Notes under the pieces: model-generated
Seen by the model: only the letters and a program-made list of their open reading frames with translations
Told to the model about the DNA's origin: nothing
Databases searched by the model: none
Position numbers and translations under genes: made by a program
Shown: positions 9,264 to 29,172 of the stretch, piece after piece
Layout of the letters: each line of letters opens with the position of its first letter
Numbering within the stretch: the first letter of the stretch is position 1
Source: a virus
Virus record (IMG/VR): IMGVR_UViG_3300047558_000422
Coordinates: 1 to 30,379 of that record
DNA length: 30,379 nucleotides
Reading direction: 5' to 3' (one strand)

Positions 9264-9333
9264 AAATTGTCTTCGCTAAAATGTAGATGATGTGTTAATA
9301 TAAAGTCTCATCAATACCATAGTGGAGCTTCAC

Positions 9334-10432
9334 ATGAATATGACCTCGACTTCTAAAATTATGACACCATATCTAGACTCAGTATCAATCAATACAGATC
9401 TCCGCATTTATCAAATTTTAGTGACCCCTGAAATGGCTAGTCTGTTTCAATCAACCATGGTGGGTAATCAGAGAAACGTAAACGAATCGCGCGTGTCTAA
9501 CTATGCCAGAGAGATACGTGACGAAAAATGGTTTTTAGGGGATAGTATTAAATTTAATAACATGGGTCAATGTTTCGACGGTGGGCACAGGTTGGCCGCT
9601 ATTATTAAATCTGGTGTGGCGACACAAATGGTTGTCGTGACTGGTTATCCTCCCGAGTCAATGTCAATTGTAGATATTGGTCAGAAGCGAACACTTGTTG
9701 ATATTGCTCGTATTGAAGGTGTTGAAGGGTTCACTAATTGGCACAGCCCAATGTTGCCATGGTTCTACTATAACTACGCAAAAACGACAGGCCACCCTCC
9801 AGCAATCAGTCAACGTCGAAAATTAGACTTATTTATTCGTTATCAGAAATCTTTCGAGTTCGCTTGTTCTTTTGGGGTATGGTGGGGCGTTACACTATCC
9901 CCCGGTCAGAGCTGTTATTGCCCGAGCACATGCACATGGTGTAGATAATAACGTCTTATCACGATTTGCAGATATTGCTGGACTTAATAAAACCCCGTCA
10001 AACTTTGGAGAAACTTCTCCTCAATTACTTAAAGATCACTACGCTCGTTCAAATGTCAGAATTCGATCACTATGCGAACATAAAATCGAGTTTGGTCAAA
10101 AAACGTTAAGAGCACTCGAAAAATTTACACGGGGGATTGGTGTTCAAAGTCTTTCTAAATTAGTGGAGAATAAGTATCCTATACATATTGACATCCAACG
10201 TTTAGATCCATTATTGCCAATGTCCATGTCTGATATCCTTACAGGATTGTGTATCGATAGTGATGTTCTATCAACCCAATTACTTACAAACATGGAAAAA
10301 GATTTGCGCCGCGATCTCGATAAAAAGGTGTTACCTAAAACTATTAAGTCGAAATCAACGGCTGATCCTTGGTATCCGACTGATGATCTAATTGATTGGA
10401 TCAATGAATACTTGAAAGACGATGACGAATAG
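9334..10432 (+). pseudogene. ParB-like (DGGHRL) phage protein, frameshifted at ~9868-9878
   Basis: Two overlapping frames together make one ~365-aa protein. The first (ATG 9334, preceded by GGAG at 9324-9327) contains a ParB/sulfiredoxin-like segment of the phage 'DGQHRL' type: ESRVSNYAREIRDEKWFLGD, CFDGGHRLAAI (D82-R86) and VDIGQKRTLVDIA. It then runs into nonsense (VWWGVTLSPGQSCY) and stops at 9948. The expected continuation, YGGALHYPPVRAVIARAHAH, lies in the +1 frame from about 9875 and runs to 10432. Removing one base from the TTTTGGGG run at 9871-9877 joins them as SFGYGGALHYPP. This may be a real mutation, a programmed +1 shift, or a sequencing homopolymer error. Family members are DNA-binding or nuclease-like proteins of poorly known role. 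A GTG at 9322 is a less likely start. Confidence 0.75.
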
Positions 10433-10475: not shown

Positions 10476-10530
10476 GGTTCGGTTAGGTCTGTTTTGGCTG
10501 GGTTGGGTATGGTTGGGTAGGGTCTGGCAT
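10476..10530 (+). repeat. Phased GGTNN pentamer array 1 (11 units)
   Basis: Eleven consecutive 5-base units run without a slip: GGTTC GGTTA GGTCT GTTTT then GGCTG GGTTG GGTAT GGTTG then GGTAG GGTCT GGCAT. Ten begin GG and the last two bases vary freely. It lies in the 3' region after the ParB-like gene, 11 bases before an intrinsic terminator. A second array with the same design is at 11069-11128. Confidence 0.9.
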
Positions 10531-10541
10531 GACCATTAAAT

Positions 10542-10577
10542 AAAATACCAACCAGGTTTTACACTGGTTGGTATTTT
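10542..10577 (+). terminator. Strong intrinsic terminator after GGTNN array 1
   Basis: A perfect 14-bp stem, AAAATACCAACCAG (10542-10555) with CTGGTTGGTATTTT (10564-10577), has an 8-base loop. The flanking A and T runs make it potentially bidirectional. Confidence 0.85.
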
Positions 10578-10643
10578 GCAATCAAGGCAATCTCCCAAAA
10601 AATATCTTGCCTTGATAAAATTATCGTGTTAACATACATTCAA

Positions 10644-10815
10644 GCGGGTGGGGAGCCAACCACCCGAAGCGGTATCCACCCCGCGACAGAGGGCAGGAAA
10701 TCCCCTCACCGAGACGGGATGAACCTCCGGCAAAAGCGAATAGCTTTAATGCAGGCCACCCCGACGGGTGAGACGGTCACAACCCCGGACAGATGCAGAG
10801 TGGAGTATTCACCAT
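10644..10815 (+). ncRNA. Candidate structured RNA / leader of unknown class
   Basis: This G/C-rich stretch between a terminator and the 50-aa ORF can form a chain of hairpins. Visible ones are GGGTGG/CCACCC (10646-10651 with 10660-10665), GCGG/CCGC (10669-10672 with 10681-10684), GAGGG/CCCTC (10689-10693 with 10703-10707) and CACCC-cgac-GGGTG (10757-10770). Purine-rich joining segments such as GGCAAAAGCGAATAG lie between. An ORF can be read through it (10626-10817), but its composition is poor for a protein. I do not recognise it as a tRNA, tmRNA, RNase P RNA, intron or known riboswitch. HEARO/omega-RNA-like elements would be worth comparing. It could be a free RNA or a 5' leader controlling the ORF at 10831. 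Confidence 0.5.
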
Positions 10816-10830
10816 AGAGAGATTAGAACA

Positions 10831-10983
10831 ATGACACTCGACCAACTGAAAGCAGCCGTTTTGAAGCATGTTTCATCTGATTGGGTTGAAGAAAATTTTG
10901 GCGATTTGGCTATGCTTGAGACTTGGGAAGATGCCTACGATCGCTGTGCTGAATTCGTTGCCAGTGATGCGGATCAATTCTAA
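10831..10983 (+). CDS. 50-aa acidic protein of unknown function
   Basis: ATG at 10831 opens a 50-aa frame (MTLDQLKAAVLKHVSSDWVE to ...FVASDADQF) with strongly acidic, helix-forming character and no membrane segment. The AGAGAGATTAG stretch upstream gives weak ribosome-binding potential. It lies between the candidate structured RNA and GGTNN array 2. The regular amphipathic pattern favours a real small protein, but no homologue is recognised. It may be a small regulator or an anti-host factor. Confidence 0.55.
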   Translation: MTLDQLKAAVLKHVSSDWVEENFGDLAMLETWEDAYDRCAEFVASDADQF

Positions 10984-11000
10984 CGGTCGGGTAAGCGAAA

Positions 11001-11047
11001 CGCGGCGTGTTAATCGCCGCGTAATAGTAGAGATGACGTGGCTACTA
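11001..11047 (+). other. Two hairpins in the 3' region of the 50-aa gene
   Basis: CGCGGCG (11001-11007) pairs with CGCCGCG (11015-11021) around a 7-base loop. TAGTAG (11025-11030) pairs with CTACTA (11042-11047). They lie between the stop codon and GGTNN array 2, so the 3' region of this small unit appears structured throughout. Neither is followed by a T run. Confidence 0.55.
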
Positions 11048-11068
11048 TCTGATGAGCAAAACGTTTCT

Positions 11069-11128
11069 GGTTTGGTGAGGTAAGGTCTGGCAAGGTGAGG
11101 TATGTCCCGGTAATGTGTGGTCAGGATA
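11069..11128 (+). repeat. Phased GGTNN pentamer array 2 (12 units)
   Basis: Twelve in-register 5-base units: GGTTT GGTGA GGTAA GGTCT, GGCAA GGTGA GGTAT GTCCC, GGTAA TGTGT GGTCA GGATA. Ten of twelve begin GG and eight are GGT. The array runs straight into the terminator stem at 11128. The sequence is not a copy of array 1 unit for unit; only the GGTNN pattern and spacing are shared. Confidence 0.9.
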
Positions 11129-11165
11129 AAAATCCTCGCTAGATAAAACACTAGCGAGGATTTTT
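11128..11165. terminator. Bidirectional intrinsic terminator between convergent units
   Basis: A perfect 15-bp stem, AAAAATCCTCGCTAG (11128-11142) with CTAGCGAGGATTTTT (11151-11165), has an 8-base loop. It ends one base before the stop codon of the tape-measure gene, so it can terminate both the plus-strand RNA unit and the long minus-strand gene. Confidence 0.9.
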
Positions 11166-11166
11166 G

Positions 11167-14100
11167 CTATGCCAAGATCCCCCCAGGACGTTTTTCTCTC
11201 AGTAATTGGTCTGTGATAGCCCCTCGGATACTAGCCTGTAGTGCTTTTTGGTCTACGTTAGGATTGCCCGACGTGACTGAAACACCGCCAACATTTACGC
11301 TGATTCCGTCGCCTGTAATGTTGTTGGTTACGGGCAAGTTATCCAAGTTTTGTCCCATGGCGAAATTAGGGATTTTATTTGATGTCAGTTTGCGTAATCG
11401 GTCGGATGTTTGGGCATCGATGATAATTTCCGATGCGTTTACCATTGCTAGTTTGGGCGTTTTACCACCGCTTTGCGAACGCTCCCGATCTGCCGCTTCT
11501 AGGATGCTGCCGAAAATATTGCTGTCTTTACCCCGTGCGTAATTTTGAACTGTGCCGCCTTTGTATGCACCTACAACACCACCCTTAGCAGCACCTTTAC
11601 CACCGAATAAGCCACCAAGCAATCCGCCTAGACCTTTACCCCCGAACAAACCAGAAAACCCGAGGTCTAAGAGCTGTGACGCGAGATTTGCAAAAACGTT
11701 GCTCATCACCTCTCCTAGGCTTTTCCCCGTAAGAATCAAATCCTTAAGGGCACCCGTCAAATTTTCGCCGAGACTTTGACCTATTTCGCGTCCTATGTTG
11801 GGGATTTCTTTCAATCGGTCAAAGTATTCATTTTCGGCGGCAAGCGTCATTGCATTATCGAGGTTTTGGATCTCCTCTGCCGTCATTTTGTAACCTGCTC
11901 GGGCACGTTCTTTTACTTGCTCCTGAATTGCAGATCGACCTTCTTTTATCTTCTGATTTTTCTCGTCATCGATTAACTGTCGTTCCTCATTGATTGCTTG
12001 GCTATTATATTTCCCAAAGCGTTCCCGTCGCTTATTGATTGCCGATCTACGCATTTTACTAGTCGCGTCAAATTGCTCATTCGCAACCTCTGCTTTTAGT
12101 TTGGTTAATCGTGCGGTGATCTCCTCTGCCGTCTTGAGTTTTTTAAGTTCAGCTTGCTCTATTACCTGTAATTTCTCTTGATTAATTAGCGCTATATTTT
12201 GACGAACGGTGTCCAGTTGACTATTCATGTCCTTAAACGCTGGAGAATCAAGACCAACACCGTTTTGCTGCAATGTTGCCATTGAATCGTTATACTTGGC
12301 GAGAGCATCATTCTGCTCATTCAATCGCTTGGTAATATCAAACAGCTTGCGCTCTCGCTCAATATCGAGTTCAATCAATCCCGCATATTGATCTTCCTGT
12401 TGCTGCGCTAACGCTAATTGTCCCTCCATCGTCAACATTTTATCATCAAATTCAAATTGCTGAGTACGGTTGCGATCGCGGATCGCTTCATCACGATCAG
12501 CCGCTGCAATTTTGAGGTTTAAGACGATACCTTCATCGGCGTATTTTTTCTTGATCGACTCAATCTCTTTATCGATAAGATTTAGCGCACCCTGTTTCAG
12601 TTTGACTTGTTCGTCTGTTTTGCCTTTGCCTAACGTTGCTTGATATTTGGCTAAATCACTTTGTAGATCTTGGCGTTGATCGATCTTAACTTGGATCTCT
12701 TTAGTGCCTTCGTACTGGCGTTTGTAATCAGCGATTTGATTGTCAATCTTATCCGTGGGCATTCCAACGCTAGCCACTACAGCCTTATCGCGTTCAGCGA
12801 TGGATACTTTAGCCTGATATTCTTTCTCGCGGTTTGCGTCACGTTTCTGACGCGCCTGTGCTAACTTTTCAGCGTTGATTGAGGCTGTATTTTCGGCGCT
12901 GCTTACACCCAACAGTGTATCGCGTAACTTCTCTTCCTGAGAGATCAGCGCTTTGGTTTCGGTGATTGCTTTGCTGTAGTTGGGTAGCAGTTTGGCTTTG
13001 TCGGCAACATCACCACCCGCTTTTAGGTCGGCTTGCTTTCTACGTAACCCCGTAGAGAGATCAGATAACTCGTCTTTTAATTCGTCGATGCGATCATTAC
13101 TTTGTGCCCCTGTGGTGAGGTTTGCTTTTTTGAAGTCGAGGGCTTTTCGCAAACTGGGATCGGAGATACCTACAGATTGCTTTTCAATTTCGGCAAGTTC
13201 CTGTTTACGGGCAATATCGCGACCTTTCTTTTTAGCCTCGCGTCGGGCTTTAGTTTCGCTGTCTTGATAGCGGCGTGACTCTTCCACCGCTTTGCGCCGT
13301 TCTGCCTCCTCCCGTTCTTCGCGCTTGGTTTGTATGTCATTTTCCGAGTCGCCAGTGTTAGCCATTGGGGATTTACCCAGTGGTGATCTGCCTGATGGTG
13401 TTGAGGATACTTGCGGGCCTTTACTACCAAGATTGAACGCTCCTAACGCTGTGTTAATTTCGCCCTGTCGTCTACCTTGATCGTAGCGTAATGACTCAAG
13501 ACTATCGAAAGTTGTTTCTAATCGACCTTGTTTGTTGCGAAAACCTTCAGCGCGTAATGTTTTTAGTGCCTCATCATCATTCTCGCGACCACGGACAGAA
13601 GCGATATTGCCCAAAAAGCCTGCCCCATTACTCCAGCCTGTAGCAGCATCGGGTGCTTGGTTTAGCAAATCAATATAGTTCATCATCAATTTTGGTGTGA
13701 CTGCTACTTGATTTTTGCTAGCGGCTTCGTATAGCTTTTGGATATTTGGTCTTAATAGCTGATCAATGACGCGCTGATCAGACGTTTCAGCGTTTCCGGT
13801 ATTGTAAGACCCTTGTGCCGAGAAACTACCGATATTATAAGCTCCGTTATTCGGATCAACGTGACCATAGTAGTTTTTAGTTTTACTTCCATCGGCAGTA
13901 CGATTACCTTCCGCCATCCCTACAAGTTTAGCAATTTGACTATTCCCACCACCTTCTAGCATTGCCATAACTTGCTGTTGACTCATCCCGCCACCTACAG
14001 CACCGTTACCAAAAGTACCGTCAATCATACTCACGCCAGCGGCCATCCCTCCACCTTGGGCTTGGCGTTGTCCAATCTTCGAGTTTAGATCTTTTGCACC

Positions 14101-17100: not shown

Positions 17101-19047
17101 CAGTTTAGCTTGCTGCTCAGCCTGCCGTGCTTCTAATTTGATACGCAACAACTTCTCTTTTTCGGCAGATTGTTGCAACGCTTTTAGCTGTTGTTGTGCC
17201 GTTTTGTCGATCAGCCTAACTTGTAACTTATGTTCCTTGTCGAACATTTGAAACAGTTGCTTAAGTTTCTCTGCGATGTATTTCGCATCGATCAAAATTT
17301 TCAGCGTGCGGGCTTTCTCGATTGGCGAAAGAACCGACTTTAACTGATCAGATAGTGACTTCGCATTGATCGCAAATCGGATCGCTCGTTCTTTTTGGGT
17401 AGACTGAAAAATCGACTCAAGCTGTTGTGTAACCCGCTGCGTATTGAGCGCAATTTTCACCGTTTGAATCTTTTCAAACGATTGGAATACTGCTTTGATT
17501 TGTTGGGTGACTTGAGTTGGATCAAAGACAACTCTCAACCGTTTAGGCTGTTCAAACGGTTGGAATAATGCTTTGACTTGCTGAGGGATCTGTTGGGCGC
17601 TGATAGCGATTTTTACAAACTGTTCTTTGTCAAACGACTTAAACAATGCTCTGATCTGATCAGCAACTTGTTTAGCGTTTACGCTAATCTTAACCGCCCG
17701 TTCTTTCTCGAAGGGTTGGAATAGTGCTTTCAGTTGTGTTTGCGCTGCTCTATCATCCAAACGAATCCGCATGAACCGATCTTGTTGGAACGGCTCTGTC
17801 AGCGATTTTGTCTGCTGTGCAAACTGTTTAGTGTCCGCAGCAACCTTGATTGAAATACCTTTTTCTACTTGCTGTAACGCAGCTTTTAACTGTTGGGTAA
17901 ATACCTTAACATCAGCCGCAATTTTGATAATTTGCTGCTTATCGAATGGCTGAAATAATGACTTTGTTTGTTGAATAAATGCCTTAGTATCAGCACCAAC
18001 TTTGACTAGGATGCCCTTTTCTAAAGGTTGGAACAGCACCTTGATTTGCTGCGCTACTTGCTTAGAATCAAGACCAACCTTTACTAAGCGTTCTTTGTCA
18101 AATGATTGCGATAACGCTTTTAGCTGTGCTTGCGCCGCCTTATCGTCTAAGCGTACACTTACCGATCGTTGCTTCTCAATCGGTTGGAATAGCGATTTAG
18201 TTTTCTCAACTAATGACTTAGCGTCAACACCAACCTTAATTACTTTCTCTTTATCGAATGGCTGAAACAGACCTTTGATCTGTCCAAATACCTGCTTAGT
18301 GTCAGCGGCAATCTTGATTACTCGCTGTAATTCAAAGGATTGAAATAATGCTTTGGTTTGCTGAGCAACTTGTTTAGTATCAGTCGCAAGTTTAACAACT
18401 TGGGTTTTATCGAATGGCTGAAACAAGCCTTTGATCTGACCTAATACCTGTTTAGTGTCAGTCGCCAGTTTGATCACACGTGGTAGATCAAACTGCTGAA
18501 ATAATCCCTTTGTTTGCTGAACAAGTTGCTTAGTATCAGCAGCAAACTTGATATAGCGTTCTTTATCAAATGATTGAAAGACGACTTTAGTTTGCTGTAA
18601 TACTTGCTTAGTATCAGCCGCAATCTTGATTACGCGCTGAATATCAAAGGATTGAAATAGTGCTTTTGTTTGCTGAGTGACCGATTTAATATCAGCGCCA
18701 AATTTGATATAGCGGGTCTTATCAAAGGACTTAAACATCTCGCTGGTTTGCTGCGCGAGTTGTTTAGTGTCAGCCGCAATCTTGATTACGCGCGTCTTTT
18801 CAATCGACTGCGCTAATGCTTTGGTTTGCTTTTGCGCTTGACTATCATCGAGTTTAATTCTTACGCTTCGTTGCTTACTGACAAGTTTATCGAAACTGGC
18901 AAACGGGTCAGATTTCCCCAATGCAGCATTAACGGTTTTGCTGAAAACGTCAGCGCACTTTACACCCGCTTTTACTGCCTCGCGATTTACCTGTGCTTCG
19001 TCAATTTTTATATTGACTACAGCATTGCCAATAACTTGATCAGCCAT
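11167..19047 (-). CDS. Tape measure protein with 25 tandem repeats and hydrolase-like domains
   Basis: At 2626 aa this is the longest gene and fits the tail-length ruler. In order: residues 1-59 lead; ~60-709, about 25 tandem 26-aa repeats of the type RVIKIAADTKQVLQQTKALF plus QSFDKE; ~710-870, coiled coil; ~880-1115, a TP901-type tape-measure core (EYDKTITDFGLKAEAS, ELAAAGVEMAKLGF, ILGRRGGAAGAAVMN); ~1290-1380, hydrophobic membrane-type segments. Next, ~1520-1635 resembles LytM/peptidase M23 (YAHFNELAVKVGDEVAVGT, GTTGSTSGPHTSVDF) but lacks the usual HxH pair. Then ~1690-1850 is muramidase-like (VGMAEGNRTADG, possible catalytic Glu near 1712). ~1880-2420 is Lys/Glu-rich coiled coil, and a Gly-rich end contains LGGLLGGLFGGKG. 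It has its own promoter at 19061-19089. Confidence 0.92.
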   Translation of the reverse strand: MADQVIGNAVVNIKIDEAQVNREAVKAGVKCADVFSKTVNAALGKSDPFASFDKLVSKQRSVRIKLDDSQAQKQTKALAQSIEKTRVIKIAADTKQLAQQTSEMFKSFDKTRYIKFGADIKSVTQQTKALFQSFDIQRVIKIAADTKQVLQQTKVVFQSFDKERYIKFAADTKQLVQQTKGLFQQFDLPRVIKLATDTKQVLGQIKGLFQPFDKTQVVKLATDTKQVAQQTKALFQSFELQRVIKIAADTKQVFGQIKGLFQPFDKEKVIKVGVDAKSLVEKTKSLFQPIEKQRSVSVRLDDKAAQAQLKALSQSFDKERLVKVGLDSKQVAQQIKVLFQPLEKGILVKVGADTKAFIQQTKSLFQPFDKQQIIKIAADVKVFTQQLKAALQQVEKGISIKVAADTKQFAQQTKSLTEPFQQDRFMRIRLDDRAAQTQLKALFQPFEKERAVKISVNAKQVADQIRALFKSFDKEQFVKIAISAQQIPQQVKALFQPFEQPKRLRVVFDPTQVTQQIKAVFQSFEKIQTVKIALNTQRVTQQLESIFQSTQKERAIRFAINAKSLSDQLKSVLSPIEKARTLKILIDAKYIAEKLKQLFQMFDKEHKLQVRLIDKTAQQQLKALQQSAEKEKLLRIKLEARQAEQQAKLLADTIQKERLLKLRLDDKAAQSQLRALQESATKEKEIKIKADARQAEQELRRLEREQAKIERKEAYKLRIDTAQAQKAISDTVKGVEAFQKMMGEIAAQKISANVSIASSLGRDTKELERQLAITKEIERHRLALAQASKLNIDDSKLQLIKRELNELHAGNTKAIKIKYDNSGMNDLKESISNMLDGIARGAAASIGHRLVGGITSAIRGAGNLMGDAVGGSLQTFGEYDKTITDFGLKAEASDEQVKRFKKTIADMQTTRTAPELAAAGVEMAKLGFTADQTADSLKSITSMADATGLKDLGKAATITATGMQVFQKSASEVNDVITTLSNKSAVDPFDFMQGFAKDGALFQSTGQTIQDLALMMGALRDSGFQAQEGAGAIKTALIQLTAPSDRGQAAMDKLGLKVYDAAGKMRPMVAILADMKSKMAGLSDEQRLPLLNDILGRRGGAAGAAVMNYLGTDKEQGLSSALANTEGASEKGAALKGKGFAGSIARLKKELQDIQIQFGEALGGLIAKIADMIGQVSQKLESAGLFDKLAEGAQKLTEYLEQNPQIIDQIVTAVSALATEGFNWINEQVQQFTEYLKENPTAIQDTIAEVRDLISKLGEAAIFAYRFTQGFADTLVTISRILGPLGDVVSKLAGGEKGSSALAENLGKAAGYVIALGAISTVVSTISSIAGYATTIAGLFGGWGAILTTVKGAIAAIGSILSGTVVLAIVAVGITLYNIVTYAMNWKDVLLGVKQYGKDIDDWVKSVIGDSKILNSIWGAIKGAVGYLLNPLGSIYEWIDKSVQETGIFRDQWNGLKSTFESVGGWIQNSVIGPILQASQALGGLIGMGGSGGNGAPLDSKTNTFKDVVVTAAVDGSGEPGMDYVTEANNGQNGENAWVPSLTAGKVIETRRDDRKLGLGGERGYGNVAIVRTMDEKSGEFVDILYAHFNELAVKVGDEVAVGTVLGTQGTTGSTSGPHTSVDFFGKDSNQPTQASLAMRDRLARDLSSGAKDLNSKIGQRQAQGGGMAAGVSMIDGTFGNGAVGGGMSQQQVMAMLEGGGNSQIAKLVGMAEGNRTADGSKTKNYYGHVDPNNGAYNIGSFSAQGSYNTGNAETSDQRVIDQLLRPNIQKLYEAASKNQVAVTPKLMMNYIDLLNQAPDAATGWSNGAGFLGNIASVRGRENDDEALKTLRAEGFRNKQGRLETTFDSLESLRYDQGRRQGEINTALGAFNLGSKGPQVSSTPSGRSPLGKSPMANTGDSENDIQTKREEREEAERRKAVEESRRYQDSETKARREAKKKGRDIARKQELAEIEKQSVGISDPSLRKALDFKKANLTTGAQSNDRIDELKDELSDLSTGLRRKQADLKAGGDVADKAKLLPNYSKAITETKALISQEEKLRDTLLGVSSAENTASINAEKLAQARQKRDANREKEYQAKVSIAERDKAVVASVGMPTDKIDNQIADYKRQYEGTKEIQVKIDQRQDLQSDLAKYQATLGKGKTDEQVKLKQGALNLIDKEIESIKKKYADEGIVLNLKIAAADRDEAIRDRNRTQQFEFDDKMLTMEGQLALAQQQEDQYAGLIELDIERERKLFDITKRLNEQNDALAKYNDSMATLQQNGVGLDSPAFKDMNSQLDTVRQNIALINQEKLQVIEQAELKKLKTAEEITARLTKLKAEVANEQFDATSKMRRSAINKRRERFGKYNSQAINEERQLIDDEKNQKIKEGRSAIQEQVKERARAGYKMTAEEIQNLDNAMTLAAENEYFDRLKEIPNIGREIGQSLGENLTGALKDLILTGKSLGEVMSNVFANLASQLLDLGFSGLFGGKGLGGLLGGLFGGKGAAKGGVVGAYKGGTVQNYARGKDSNIFGSILEAADRERSQSGGKTPKLAMVNASEIIIDAQTSDRLRKLTSNKIPNFAMGQNLDNLPVTNNITGDGISVNVGGVSVTSGNPNVDQKALQASIRGAITDQLLREKRPGGILA
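16920..18870 (-). repeat. 78-bp tandem repeats inside the tape measure gene
   Basis: About 25 head-to-tail copies of a 78-bp unit encode the 26-aa repeats with consensus (R)(V)IK(I/V)AADTKQ-x4-QTKALFQ(S/P)FDKE. Copies diverge more towards the 3' side of the gene, where the unit drifts to LDDKAAQxQLKAL forms and finally merges with coiled coil. Every copy keeps the 26-residue length, so no frameshift or indel has been tolerated. Confidence 0.9.
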
Positions 19048-19135: not shown

Positions 19136-19984
19136 TTAAGTTGTCACAACTTCGCGATCGACAAAATGCACCCAGAATTGGTCATCGGTCAGGCAAGTTC
19201 GCTCAATCAGTCCATAGCTATACGTTAATTGTTTACCCTTACTATTATTGCCGTAGGGGTCGTTACGGTCATATCCCCAGCTATACCATTCTCCATAGGG
19301 ATCATGAACAATTAGACCCCGCTCGTCATAGCCGATCACGGTGACAATATGACCGAAGCTGGTGAAATACCCATGGATAACGACTGGTTTACCGCTGGAT
19401 AGGTGTTTTTTAACCTGTTCGATTGTTGCCTTTGAATCAAAGTTGTCAATCAATCCATAGGATCTAGCCATGGTTCTCAGGTCTAACGGGCTGTGTCGAG
19501 ATAGCCCATTGTCTTCCATGTATCGATACAACTCATCTTCTAGTTGCCTTGCCCCAGTGCGACTCGTCACACCAAAGTAGCTCATCACCATGGCAAATGA
19601 TGTGACGTTACAAGCACCATCAGGATTTTCGTAGTTGTCGCGTTGGCTTAAATATGGCACAGGCAACAATACCCTATCGCGTTGTGCTGGTAGTGCGTTA
19701 AGCTGCTGGCTGCGTGCAAGTGTTTTTACTTCCTGGTAAATTTTGCCGACCCCGTCCCAATGGTCAGCAAAAATGTAACATGTTTTCCGTGGTTTACCGC
19801 CGATCGTCAACGCATCGGCAAAACGTACTTCCCAATGTTTCTGATCGTTGGGTGCCTTACGAACCGAAACAATAGCAAGTTCCTCGCCCGCTGTATGTCC
19901 CCGATACTCGTCAGCCCCTAGTTTACTGCTATCAATCGGACGCAGCTTTAATTTAGTGTCGCGATTAGCCTTAATGAATGGCAT
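19136..19984 (-). CDS. C39-like cysteine peptidase, probable endolysin or virion peptidase
   Basis: The start at 19984 was chosen because GGAGG lies 10 bases upstream and the ATG follows the previous stop by one base, giving 282 aa. The C-terminal half is a peptidase C39_2-like domain: PYLSQRDNYENPDGACNVTS with the nucleophile Cys125, GHIVTVIGYD with His212 and VHDPYGEW with Asp228. The N-terminal ~100 residues form a small beta domain that may bind peptidoglycan (LRPIDSSKLG, KTCYIFADHWDG). Such proteins occur in phages as cell-wall peptidases and could cut peptide cross-links at lysis or entry. The neighbour upstream has hydrophobic segments and may be the matching holin. The catalytic triad is complete; substrate is inferred. 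Confidence 0.75.
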   Translation of the reverse strand: MPFIKANRDTKLKLRPIDSSKLGADEYRGHTAGEELAIVSVRKAPNDQKHWEVRFADALTIGGKPRKTCYIFADHWDGVGKIYQEVKTLARSQQLNALPAQRDRVLLPVPYLSQRDNYENPDGACNVTSFAMVMSYFGVTSRTGARQLEDELYRYMEDNGLSRHSPLDLRTMARSYGLIDNFDSKATIEQVKKHLSSGKPVVIHGYFTSFGHIVTVIGYDERGLIVHDPYGEWYSWGYDRNDPYGNNSKGKQLTYSYGLIERTCLTDDQFWVHFVDREVVTT

Positions 19985-19985
19985 A

Positions 19986-20489
19986 TTACCATGCCTCCGA
20001 TTGTGGATTATCGCTATCACCGCGCATACTTTCCATGGCAAAAGTAAACGGTGTTACGTCTGTCCCCTCGATTGTCTGTTGAGGGATATTCGGCAATCGT
20101 CGCCCCGCTGCTAGCTGCTTACTGAAATACTGACTGGCACGTTCTTGGGGTGTCTGTTCTCTGGGCACATCGCGATATTCAGCCTCGGGAATGTCATGGA
20201 TGACGATCGGTATGTCTTCCGCTTTTACCGTGCTGACACTATAACCATGAGGCTTTAGGAGATGGTCTAGAATCTGACCAAAAATGTCTTTAGCAACGTC
20301 CTTATCATCCTTGTCCAACTTCGACAGTCTTTCCAATAGCTTATCTTTCGATCCGGTTGCAAAGGATACGATCGCAGCGGGTAGCGTCCACAATTTCTCT
20401 TCCGTAAACTTTCCCATAGACATTTCCCACCCAGCGTAACCCGTGACGATGGCACCGACAACATTTGTAAACCGATTGCGGAAGGACAT
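19986..20489 (-). CDS. Membrane-associated protein, holin candidate
   Basis: This 167-aa protein starts MSFRNRFTNVVGAIVTGYAG. Two weakly hydrophobic stretches lie in residues ~8-45 (VVGAIVTGYAGWEM, LPAAIVSFATGSK), followed by a charged helix (DKLLERLSKLDKDDKDVAKD) and a Pro/Gln-rich polar tail. It is translationally coupled to the C39-like peptidase and has its own copy of the phage promoter/operator, so the pair is a two-gene unit. Holin or lysis-accessory function is inferred from context only; the membrane segments are not strong. Confidence 0.5.
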   Translation of the reverse strand: MSFRNRFTNVVGAIVTGYAGWEMSMGKFTEEKLWTLPAAIVSFATGSKDKLLERLSKLDKDDKDVAKDIFGQILDHLLKPHGYSVSTVKAEDIPIVIHDIPEAEYRDVPREQTPQERASQYFSKQLAAGRRLPNIPQQTIEGTDVTPFTFAMESMRGDSDNPQSEAW

Positions 20490-27651: not shown

Positions 27652-27714
27652 CGGATAAGTCACACCACAGCGTCACGTTGTTTGAGTAAACCCAAAGCGT
27701 TATCGTCTAAAAAC

Positions 27715-27735
27715 CCTGGTTTACAGGCGATTCAA
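27715..27735. repeat. Isolated third arm of palindromic element E5
   Basis: CCTGGTTTACAGG follows a ~63-bp spacer whose first part resembles the spacer after E1 (GATAAG...CACAGCG). It lies just before the -10-like TATACT (27757-27762) of the phosphoesterase gene. Confidence 0.75.
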
Positions 27736-27792
27736 GCAATAATCGTAAAACTGTACTATACTAGTGTTAACATTATTGGAGCGATAATCAGC

Positions 27793-29172
27793 ATGGATGA
27801 TCGGACGTGTTTGCGGTGTGGTGAGACTAAGCCTGTATCGGCCTACCAAGGGAATCGGCAAGTGTGTCGGACGTGTAGGAATAAGCAACAGGTAGAACGT
27901 CGTTGGCGACGTAAGGAACGACAATTAGAGACAGTAGAACCCACACCAGTCACCGTAAACCAGGGAGATAAGACTGAGTTCACGGTGACTGGCAATGACG
28001 CGGTGTTTGTCGCTCAGTCACAGTCGTCCATCAAAACTGTAAACCAGTTGCTAGAAGCCTACTCAGTTGATCTGAGTCAGTGGCAGATCGTTGATAGCCA
28101 GATCAAGACAGTCAGCGCTGATGATCGTCTGGTTTACAATGTGCGAGTTAATCTAAAGGCGCTAGAACTTAAGCCAGTCCGATTCGCTCCTATTCATCCG
28201 GTTCGATTGGCTTTCAGCCCCAGGTTTACAGGAATGTCAACACATCCGAAGTCAATAACGCAACAATACATATTTGCATCAGTAGAGAATGGACTAGATC
28301 GGCAAACAGTCAATTCTACTAGGATCGCTGTCGCCAATAACAACTCTCTAAAAACCTGTCTTGTTGTCCCTGATAGCCAAAACGGTTTTTATCGTAAACC
28401 AGACGGATCGCTAGACCCAATGCACGATCCACAATGTTGGGATCTAGTTCACCAACTAAATCGCCACATCAAACCTAATACAATTGTACTACTAGGAGAC
28501 ATGATTGATTTGGCGGAATGGTCGGACAAGTACACCTCGTCTCCTGATATGGCGTACACCACACAGGCGACGATCGATGATTTGGCACGCACGCTGGGTC
28601 AATTGCGGCGCGATAATCCTACGGCTCAGATTGTTTATATTGAGGGCAACCACGAAAAGCGGTTTCAACTGGCTATCCTCAATCACTTAAAAGCAGCTTA
28701 CGGGTTACGTAAAGCGGGGGACGTTGGATCTCACGATACGTTTAGCCTACCCTATCTTTTGGGGCTAGAGGAGTTAGGGATTGATTATCGCGGATCTTAT
28801 CCTGATGGCAGTTTTTACCTGAATGAAAAACTAGAGTTTGGTCATGGGACGATCGTACGTGGTGGCGGTGGGGAGACTGCTAAAGCTGTGCTAAAGGATA
28901 TGGATCACTCCTATTGTTACGGGCATATTCACCGCCATGAACTGCGGGCACATACTATCCACAAACGTGACGGAACTCAGGAAGTGCGCTATGCGTTTAG
29001 TCCCGGTACGATTGCGCGAATCGATGGCGCGGTTCCGGCTAACTCTAAGCGAAATGATTGGCAACAGGGTCTTTCTGTAGTAACATATAGCGATAAGCAG
29101 TTCGGTGTAGAAATGTTGGCGATTGACAATGGTGAACTGTTTTATCGTGGTCAATTATTTAGAGGCGTTTAG
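27793..29172 (+). CDS. Calcineurin-like metallophosphoesterase with N-terminal zinc ribbon
   Basis: The start at 27793 was chosen because GGAG lies 11 bases upstream and the protein then begins with a zinc ribbon (C6, C9, C25, C28), giving 459 aa. Residues ~45-180 are a variable linker. The phosphoesterase fold follows: VVPDSQ with D194 (PDxQ instead of DxH), LLGDMIDL with D236, EGNHEKR with N286-H287, an FGHG near 350 and YGHIHRHE with H378 and H380. All metal-binding motifs are present. Family members cut phosphodiester or phosphomonoester bonds; in phages they may act on DNA ends or nucleotides. The linker-coding DNA contains several GTAAACCAG arms, in different frames. It heads a four-gene plus-strand operon. 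Confidence 0.85.
   Translation: MDDRTCLRCGETKPVSAYQGNRQVCRTCRNKQQVERRWRRKERQLETVEPTPVTVNQGDKTEFTVTGNDAVFVAQSQSSIKTVNQLLEAYSVDLSQWQIVDSQIKTVSADDRLVYNVRVNLKALELKPVRFAPIHPVRLAFSPRFTGMSTHPKSITQQYIFASVENGLDRQTVNSTRIAVANNNSLKTCLVVPDSQNGFYRKPDGSLDPMHDPQCWDLVHQLNRHIKPNTIVLLGDMIDLAEWSDKYTSSPDMAYTTQATIDDLARTLGQLRRDNPTAQIVYIEGNHEKRFQLAILNHLKAAYGLRKAGDVGSHDTFSLPYLLGLEELGIDYRGSYPDGSFYLNEKLEFGHGTIVRGGGGETAKAVLKDMDHSYCYGHIHRHELRAHTIHKRDGTQEVRYAFSPGTIARIDGAVPANSKRNDWQQGLSVVTYSDKQFGVEMLAIDNGELFYRGQLFRGV

Follow-up and report, generated by a model that had tools for sequence, protein, structure and literature searches.

What kind of genetic element is formed by two short rows of GGTNN-like pentamers that each run up to a strong hairpin? 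The question is raised by the window, which here means the whole stretch of DNA analysed, a linear virus fragment of 30,379 bases containing genes for tail fibre/J-like, tail assembly, tape-measure, and major head proteins. Upstream of the two arrays, a plus-strand gene region stops at 10432; on their other side, the convergent tape-measure gene ends at 11167. Arrays 1 and 2, which belong to a tailed phage, are very probably vrRNA guides of the VIPR kind; they are filed here as VIPR-kind guide RNAs, not as a complete VIPR system. The features of the locus and some other features of the window are collected in Table 1.

Table 1. Features of the window; positions are counted from its first base
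Feature	Position	Strand	Remarks
ParB/DGxHR-like gene	9322-10432	+	phrog_5931 match in first half
Array 1, candidate guide (vrRNA) 1	10476-10530	+	11 pentamer units, GGT in 8/11, GGY+NN in 10/11; units GGTTC GGTTA GGTCT GTTTT GGCTG GGTTG GGTAT GGTTG GGTAG GGTCT GGCAT; NN string TC TA CT TT TG TG AT TG AG CT AT
Terminator-like hairpin, array 1	10541-10578	+	-21.4 kcal/mol, z -5.9; A-tract/T-tract within stem; presumed 3' end of vrRNA 1
GC-rich leader, apparently structured	10620-10742		upstream of twister candidate
Candidate type-P1 twister ribozyme	10743-10806	+	RF03160, 36.8 bits (gathering 67.2), E 2.8e-6 (801-nt search); cleavage predicted near 10747/10748, by homology
Small putative ORF, 50 aa	10832-10983	+	MTLDQLKAAVLKHVSSDWVEENFG...; between twister candidate and hammerhead
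Two extra GGYNN units (GGTCG GGTAA)	10985-10994	+	directly 5' of hammerhead, as in Leptolyngbya locus
Hammerhead ribozyme, type II permutation	10993-11062	+	RF02276, 28.2 bits (gathering 37), E 0.0018
Array 2, candidate guide (vrRNA) 2	11069-11128	+	12 pentamer units, GGT in 8/12, GGY+NN in 9/12; units GGTTT GGTGA GGTAA GGTCT GGCAA GGTGA GGTAT GTCCC GGTAA TGTGT GGTCA GGATA; NN string TT GA AA CT AA GA AT CC AA GT CA TA
Terminator-like hairpin, array 2	11127-11166	+	-22.9 kcal/mol, z -8.3; between convergent transcription units; presumed 3' end of vrRNA 2
Repeat within tape-measure gene	18248-18793		156-bp repeat with 78-bp substructure
Peptidase_C39_2 / papain-like protease	19136-20041	-	E 1.8e-21; among tail genes
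Protein with HNH-like N-terminus and metallophosphoesterase C-terminus	27682-29172	+

Grammar of the arrays and their hairpins

The consensus of both arrays is GGY (GGT or GGC) followed by two variable bases, with a few degenerate units. The original prediction had described strict GGTNN repeats; the five-base phase was retained in both arrays, unbroken by indels over 11 and 12 units, respectively, but the triplet proved to be GGY with degenerate units and not pure GGT. Each array contains eight in-phase GGT triplets per 11-unit frame, against a best value of three for the minus strand and no more than four in Markov-1 simulations (60 runs of the whole window and 2000 runs of the local 770 nt), and the two GGYNN arrays are confirmed as real, far above chance. 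The NN positions are diverse, with 9 distinct units out of 11 in array 1 and 10 out of 12 in array 2; simple slippage of one unit, an origin that had been proposed as a check, is thus excluded. In another array locus, L085 (positions 24-313), arrays of 7-11 units are linked via a 4-nt unit (GGCAAGGCA), and the phase moves by -1 each 44-54 nt, perhaps marking guide-guide boundaries.

As had been claimed, both arrays end at or near very strong hairpins: that of array 1 begins 10 nt past the array end, and that of array 2 overlaps the last unit. Both hairpins are near-perfect, with paired A- and T-tracts; neither was listed in a terminator scan of the window, presumably because the T-run is located inside the stem. 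In the wider set of arrays, a terminator-like hairpin was found no more than 80 nt from the array end in 14 of 222 cases (the two window arrays included), compared with 1 of 444 random positions, whereas 208 of the 222 had no terminator at that distance. The association of arrays with terminators is real, but it concerns a minority of arrays only, and the hairpin is plausibly the way in which some vrRNAs obtain their 3' end. Stand-alone array-terminator units are also seen in L005 (1633-1687, minus strand, and 11566-11635, plus strand), directly 3' of sigma-70-like promoter sequences (for example TTGACA...TATACT, read by eye); these are apparently autonomous vrRNA genes.

Linkage of pentamer arrays to the Vipr protein

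VIPR was described in a preprint of 2026 as a phage system composed of a Cas7-like RAMP protein, Vipr, and of vrRNA guides (PMC13142463), by which the statement that no described element has this pattern is superseded. A vrRNA consists of 9-16 tandem YNNGG units in which GGY is conserved and NN is hypervariable; it is bound by Vipr, and its NN dinucleotides specify double-stranded DNA with a 1-nt skip (PMC13142463). Both window arrays agree with this definition in the number of units, the conservation of GGY, and the variability of NN, and the identity of grammar argues for the VIPR-kind reading. Positions 4-5 of the pentamer, originally regarded as free, are indeed diverse, but they constitute the guide according to the preprint (PMC13142463). 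VIPR has also been proposed as an ancestor-like relative of CRISPR. In the public record of Escherichia phage SUSP1, arrays flank the 195-aa protein ALH47069, as described for this locus (PMC13142463).

Before any protein was known, viral contigs were scanned for seven GGYNN units alone, which yielded at least 120 loci; those listed contain long, phase-kept GGY arrays of about 7 to more than 100 units with diverse NN. Since some GGC-rich matches of this first scan may be low-complexity repeats, linkage to Vipr was tested against control loci. Homologues were sought from the SUSP1 Vipr (ALH47069) in the listed loci (1.05 Mb) and in 102 viral loci that had been fetched for unrelated patterns (0.86 Mb). 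A Vipr homologue was found in 78 of the 120 array loci listed and in none of the 102 controls, which were also devoid of seven-unit GGYNN arrays. Vipr and the nearest array are on the same strand in 76 of the 78 cases and within 1 kb in 77 of them, with a median gap of 37.5 nt. This linkage is a second argument for guides of the VIPR kind. The Vipr family corresponds to phrog_4652, annotated as ‘unknown function’, and its profile matches PDB 36PP, ‘SUSP1 Vipr protein’, at 1e-61. Clustering of the ORFs near Vipr-less arrays revealed no other common protein, the largest clusters being ORFs that overlap the arrays.

TRAP (TrpBP, PF02081) is a multimeric RNA-binding protein that recognizes (G/U)AGNN repeats with a nearby terminator. 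By analogy, the original prediction considered a binding site for a ring protein; on this reading, a TRAP-like ring of 11 or 12 subunits would bind GGUNN repeats in the transcript and thereby control termination at the hairpins beside them. The 5-nt period, the triplet followed by two spacer bases, and the 11-12 units adjoining terminators match such a ring, but the triplets of the window arrays are GGY and not (G/U)AG, and arrays elsewhere, with 7 to more than 100 units, show no fixed ring size and mostly have no terminator close by. PF02081 was absent from all 42 array-bearing records searched (window excluded), whereas the B. subtilis control genome gave a match, and none of the window ORFs scanned against Pfam matched this family. 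The protein linked to the arrays is instead a RAMP, and NN is reported as the guide (PMC13142463). The TRAP reading thus fails on gene content and triplet and is extremely improbable; what survives of the analogy is that a multi-subunit protein probably grips each triplet. The arrays probably act as RNA.

It is likewise very improbable that the arrays alone form stacked two-layer RNA G-quadruplexes affecting termination or RNA stability. Two-tetrad quadruplexes are possible in principle for GGN3 repeats, and both arrays abut stable hairpins, but quadruplexes require no fixed pyrimidine as the third base and no exact five-base period, and they leave the linkage to Vipr in the listed loci, as against the controls, unexplained.

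Ribozymes and hammerhead-array cassettes

A hammerhead ribozyme lies directly 5' of array 2. The features of the type II permutation are all present (CUGAUGA core, GAAA, stems I and III, and a cleavable H17), with an Rfam score under the gathering threshold. Stem III (8 bp) spans about 11000-11022, stem I (7 bp) 11024-11048, and the core CTGATGA 11049-11055, H17 being A; cleavage is predicted after A11023, which would leave vrRNA 2 with a 5'-OH end at 11024. Among the 120 listed array loci, a full hammerhead core near an array was found in the window only. Hammerhead-interspersed arrays have been reported for some of the seven VIPR types and single vrRNAs for others (PMC13142463), and these precedents support the VIPR-kind reading.

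The twister candidate upstream scored below the RF03160 gathering threshold, at which it was not reported. The leader that precedes it had no Rfam match and a fold mildly better than shuffles (z -1.6 over 10620-10835). A pistol-like appearance 5' of array 1 (a hairpin followed by TTAAAT) was without Rfam support even at E 10. If the twister candidate and the hammerhead both cut, an RNA of about 280 nt would be freed, bearing 5'-OH and 2',3'-cyclic phosphate ends. Such ends are the form that RtcB can ligate.

Cassettes of this kind were searched for in viral contigs and 84,980 species genomes as CTGATGA followed by six GGYNN units within 30 nt. Together with chance matches and long arrays that themselves contain CTGATGA, the scan yielded three loci with a hammerhead of the window-type build, in Leptolyngbya sp. 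ULC077bin1 (L236), a Clostridia MAG (L234), and Metabacillus fastidiosus (L245, two hammerheads in tandem). In all three, as in the window, a GAAA/CTGATGA hammerhead with this permutation directly precedes a GGYNN array, but they differ from the window in stem and loop sequences and in having a vipr homologue upstream of the cassette. The recurrence of the window cassette, each time with vipr upstream, also argues for the VIPR-kind reading. The order in the Leptolyngbya locus is HNH gene, vipr, GGYNN units, hammerhead, array, and A-tract hairpin T-tract, and both of its arrays end, like those of the window, in an A-tract/hairpin/T-tract build; the HNH gene adjoins vipr in M. fastidiosus as well.

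A structure model of the Leptolyngbya Vipr (mean pLDDT 87) had Csm3/Cas7 chains as its best solved matches, with Foldseek E values down to 2.5e-5, Z of about 11, and rmsd of 3.6-3.9 over 155-158 residues. The modelled protein is thus predicted to fold like Csm3/Cas7, and this likeness, along with the match of the family profile to 36PP, adds to the case for VIPR-kind guides.

Probable guides in a fragment where vipr was not found

The vipr gene, the usual close neighbour of such arrays, was not found in the window. A profile HMM search of the window ORFs gave a best score of 1.9 bits, six-frame HMM and genome searches of the 30.4 kb gave none, hhalign assigned 3% probability (distant true Viprs reached 99.6% in the same test), and none of the ORFs scanned against PHROGs matched phrog_4652. 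Given that the window covers 30.4 kb and is a linear fragment, the missing vipr is not decisive; the Vipr profile is also biased to the SUSP1-like type, so that other Vipr types may escape it. Two further points stand against the VIPR-kind reading: 3 of the 12 units of array 2 break GGY, and no target was found above chance.

Targets were read as NNxNNxNN under the 1-nt skip rule. With skips of 0-3, no outlier was obtained in the window and the fetched loci except the arrays themselves at skip 3, and 8-unit seeds of both arrays gave extension scores at chance in viral contigs. In 386 genomes of the phylum to which the Leptolyngbya MAG belongs, matches with up to 3 mismatches occurred in 13 for array 1 and in 5 for array 2, compared with a handful for the reversed control pattern, that is, no target above chance. 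The best match of array 2 was 22/24 in L193, about the chance level for such a scan; another, 21/24, also about chance level, lies in a gene common to L183, L190, and L208, where the skipped base is the wobble position.

The arrays might instead be decayed vrRNAs, relics of a VIPR locus that remained after loss of vipr and now lack function, which is considered unlikely. The missing vipr, the degenerate units of array 2, and the splitting of the ParB-like gene just upstream would agree with decay, but the hammerhead retains its core and stems, the two hairpins are almost perfect, and the phase is free of indels throughout. The ParB/DGxHR-like gene is split over two frames at about 9890-9900, its downstream half running to the stop at 10432; the split reflects an error in the sequence, decay of the gene, or programmed frameshifting.

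Under the VIPR-kind reading, each array would be made as a short RNA whose 3' end is set by the hairpin, and the 5' end of vrRNA 2 would be generated by hammerhead self-cleavage after 11023. Each pentamer of the RNA would be covered by one copy of Vipr, which would hold on to GGY; the NN bases, left exposed, would base-pair with double-stranded DNA as NNxNNxNN (1-nt skip), and in this way a gene carried by a competitor, either a phage or a mobile element, would be silenced. The RNA binding and the 1-nt skip code are those of the published system (PMC13142463) and do not derive from the present analysis. The arrays are presumably expressed and loaded, Vipr would be supplied by the unsequenced part of the phage or by another element in the cell, and the target is presumed to be a competitor.

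Within this explanation, it is a tentative possibility that the arrays are orphan guides acting in trans, loaded on the Vipr of a host, helper phage, or competitor. Viral records in which an array is followed by a terminator, with no Vipr nearby or in the record, occur elsewhere (e.g., L021, L037, L064, L075, and L114), and satellites encoding their own vrRNAs have been reported (PMC13142463). The Vipr-less records, however, are all classed as linear and are often fragments, and Vipr types other than that of SUSP1 may have been missed in them. Guides apart from the protein gene may be a recurring arrangement. A more elaborate version, fairly unlikely, is that Vipr-less guides are used in trans by a phage or satellite from a ribozyme-processed locus, with the twister upstream and the hammerhead downstream, which would free a 5'-hydroxyl guide RNA and the ligatable middle RNA of about 280 nt. 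If this were true, guides would be traded between elements independently of the protein.

The window locus and VIPR of SUSP1 have in common GGY/NN pentamer arrays of 9-16 units, hypervariable NN, phage-encoded and intergenic location, and possibly a structured 3' end after the array, and with some VIPR types the window shares hammerhead-interspersed arrays (PMC13142463). They differ in that a vipr or vap gene was not found in the 30.4-kb fragment, and in that the window arrays are 0.6 kb apart, beside tail genes. As compared with the SUSP1 type only, the 3' element is a terminator-like hairpin in the window and a SUSP1-type tail in SUSP1. A candidate twister precedes the window hammerhead; this candidate and the fact that vipr was not found nearby are the unusual points of the locus. 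Class 1 CRISPR crRNAs, with their Cas7/Csm3 backbone, are coated by repeated RAMP subunits and pair with periodic interruptions, as the guides here would be and do, but the code of the arrays would be non-contiguous, and neither CRISPR repeats and spacers nor cas genes were recognised.

The major head protein shares 37% identity with those of Vibrio SSP002-like phages. No relatives were found in viral contigs via the capsid, the ParB-like protein, or the 50-aa ORF, nor in a search of a phage DNA collection. The hexamer CGATCG, the core of the cyanobacterial HIP1 element, occurs 24 times in the window (positions 1-30379) as against about 6 expected. Together with the Leptolyngbya cassette, this excess hints at a cyanobacterial host, as yet unproven.

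With these findings, VIPR would gain another lineage of tailed phages, one that has no close relatives in the collections, and the window would be an example of guides lying apart from the protein gene. The pentamer grammar persists in the hammerhead-array cassettes of a cyanobacterium, a Clostridia MAG, and a Bacillaceae strain. By itself, this grammar serves well for detection, as a plain scan for seven GGYNN units recovers the Vipr family without any protein input, and therefore guides and candidate targets could be catalogued on a large scale from DNA alone.
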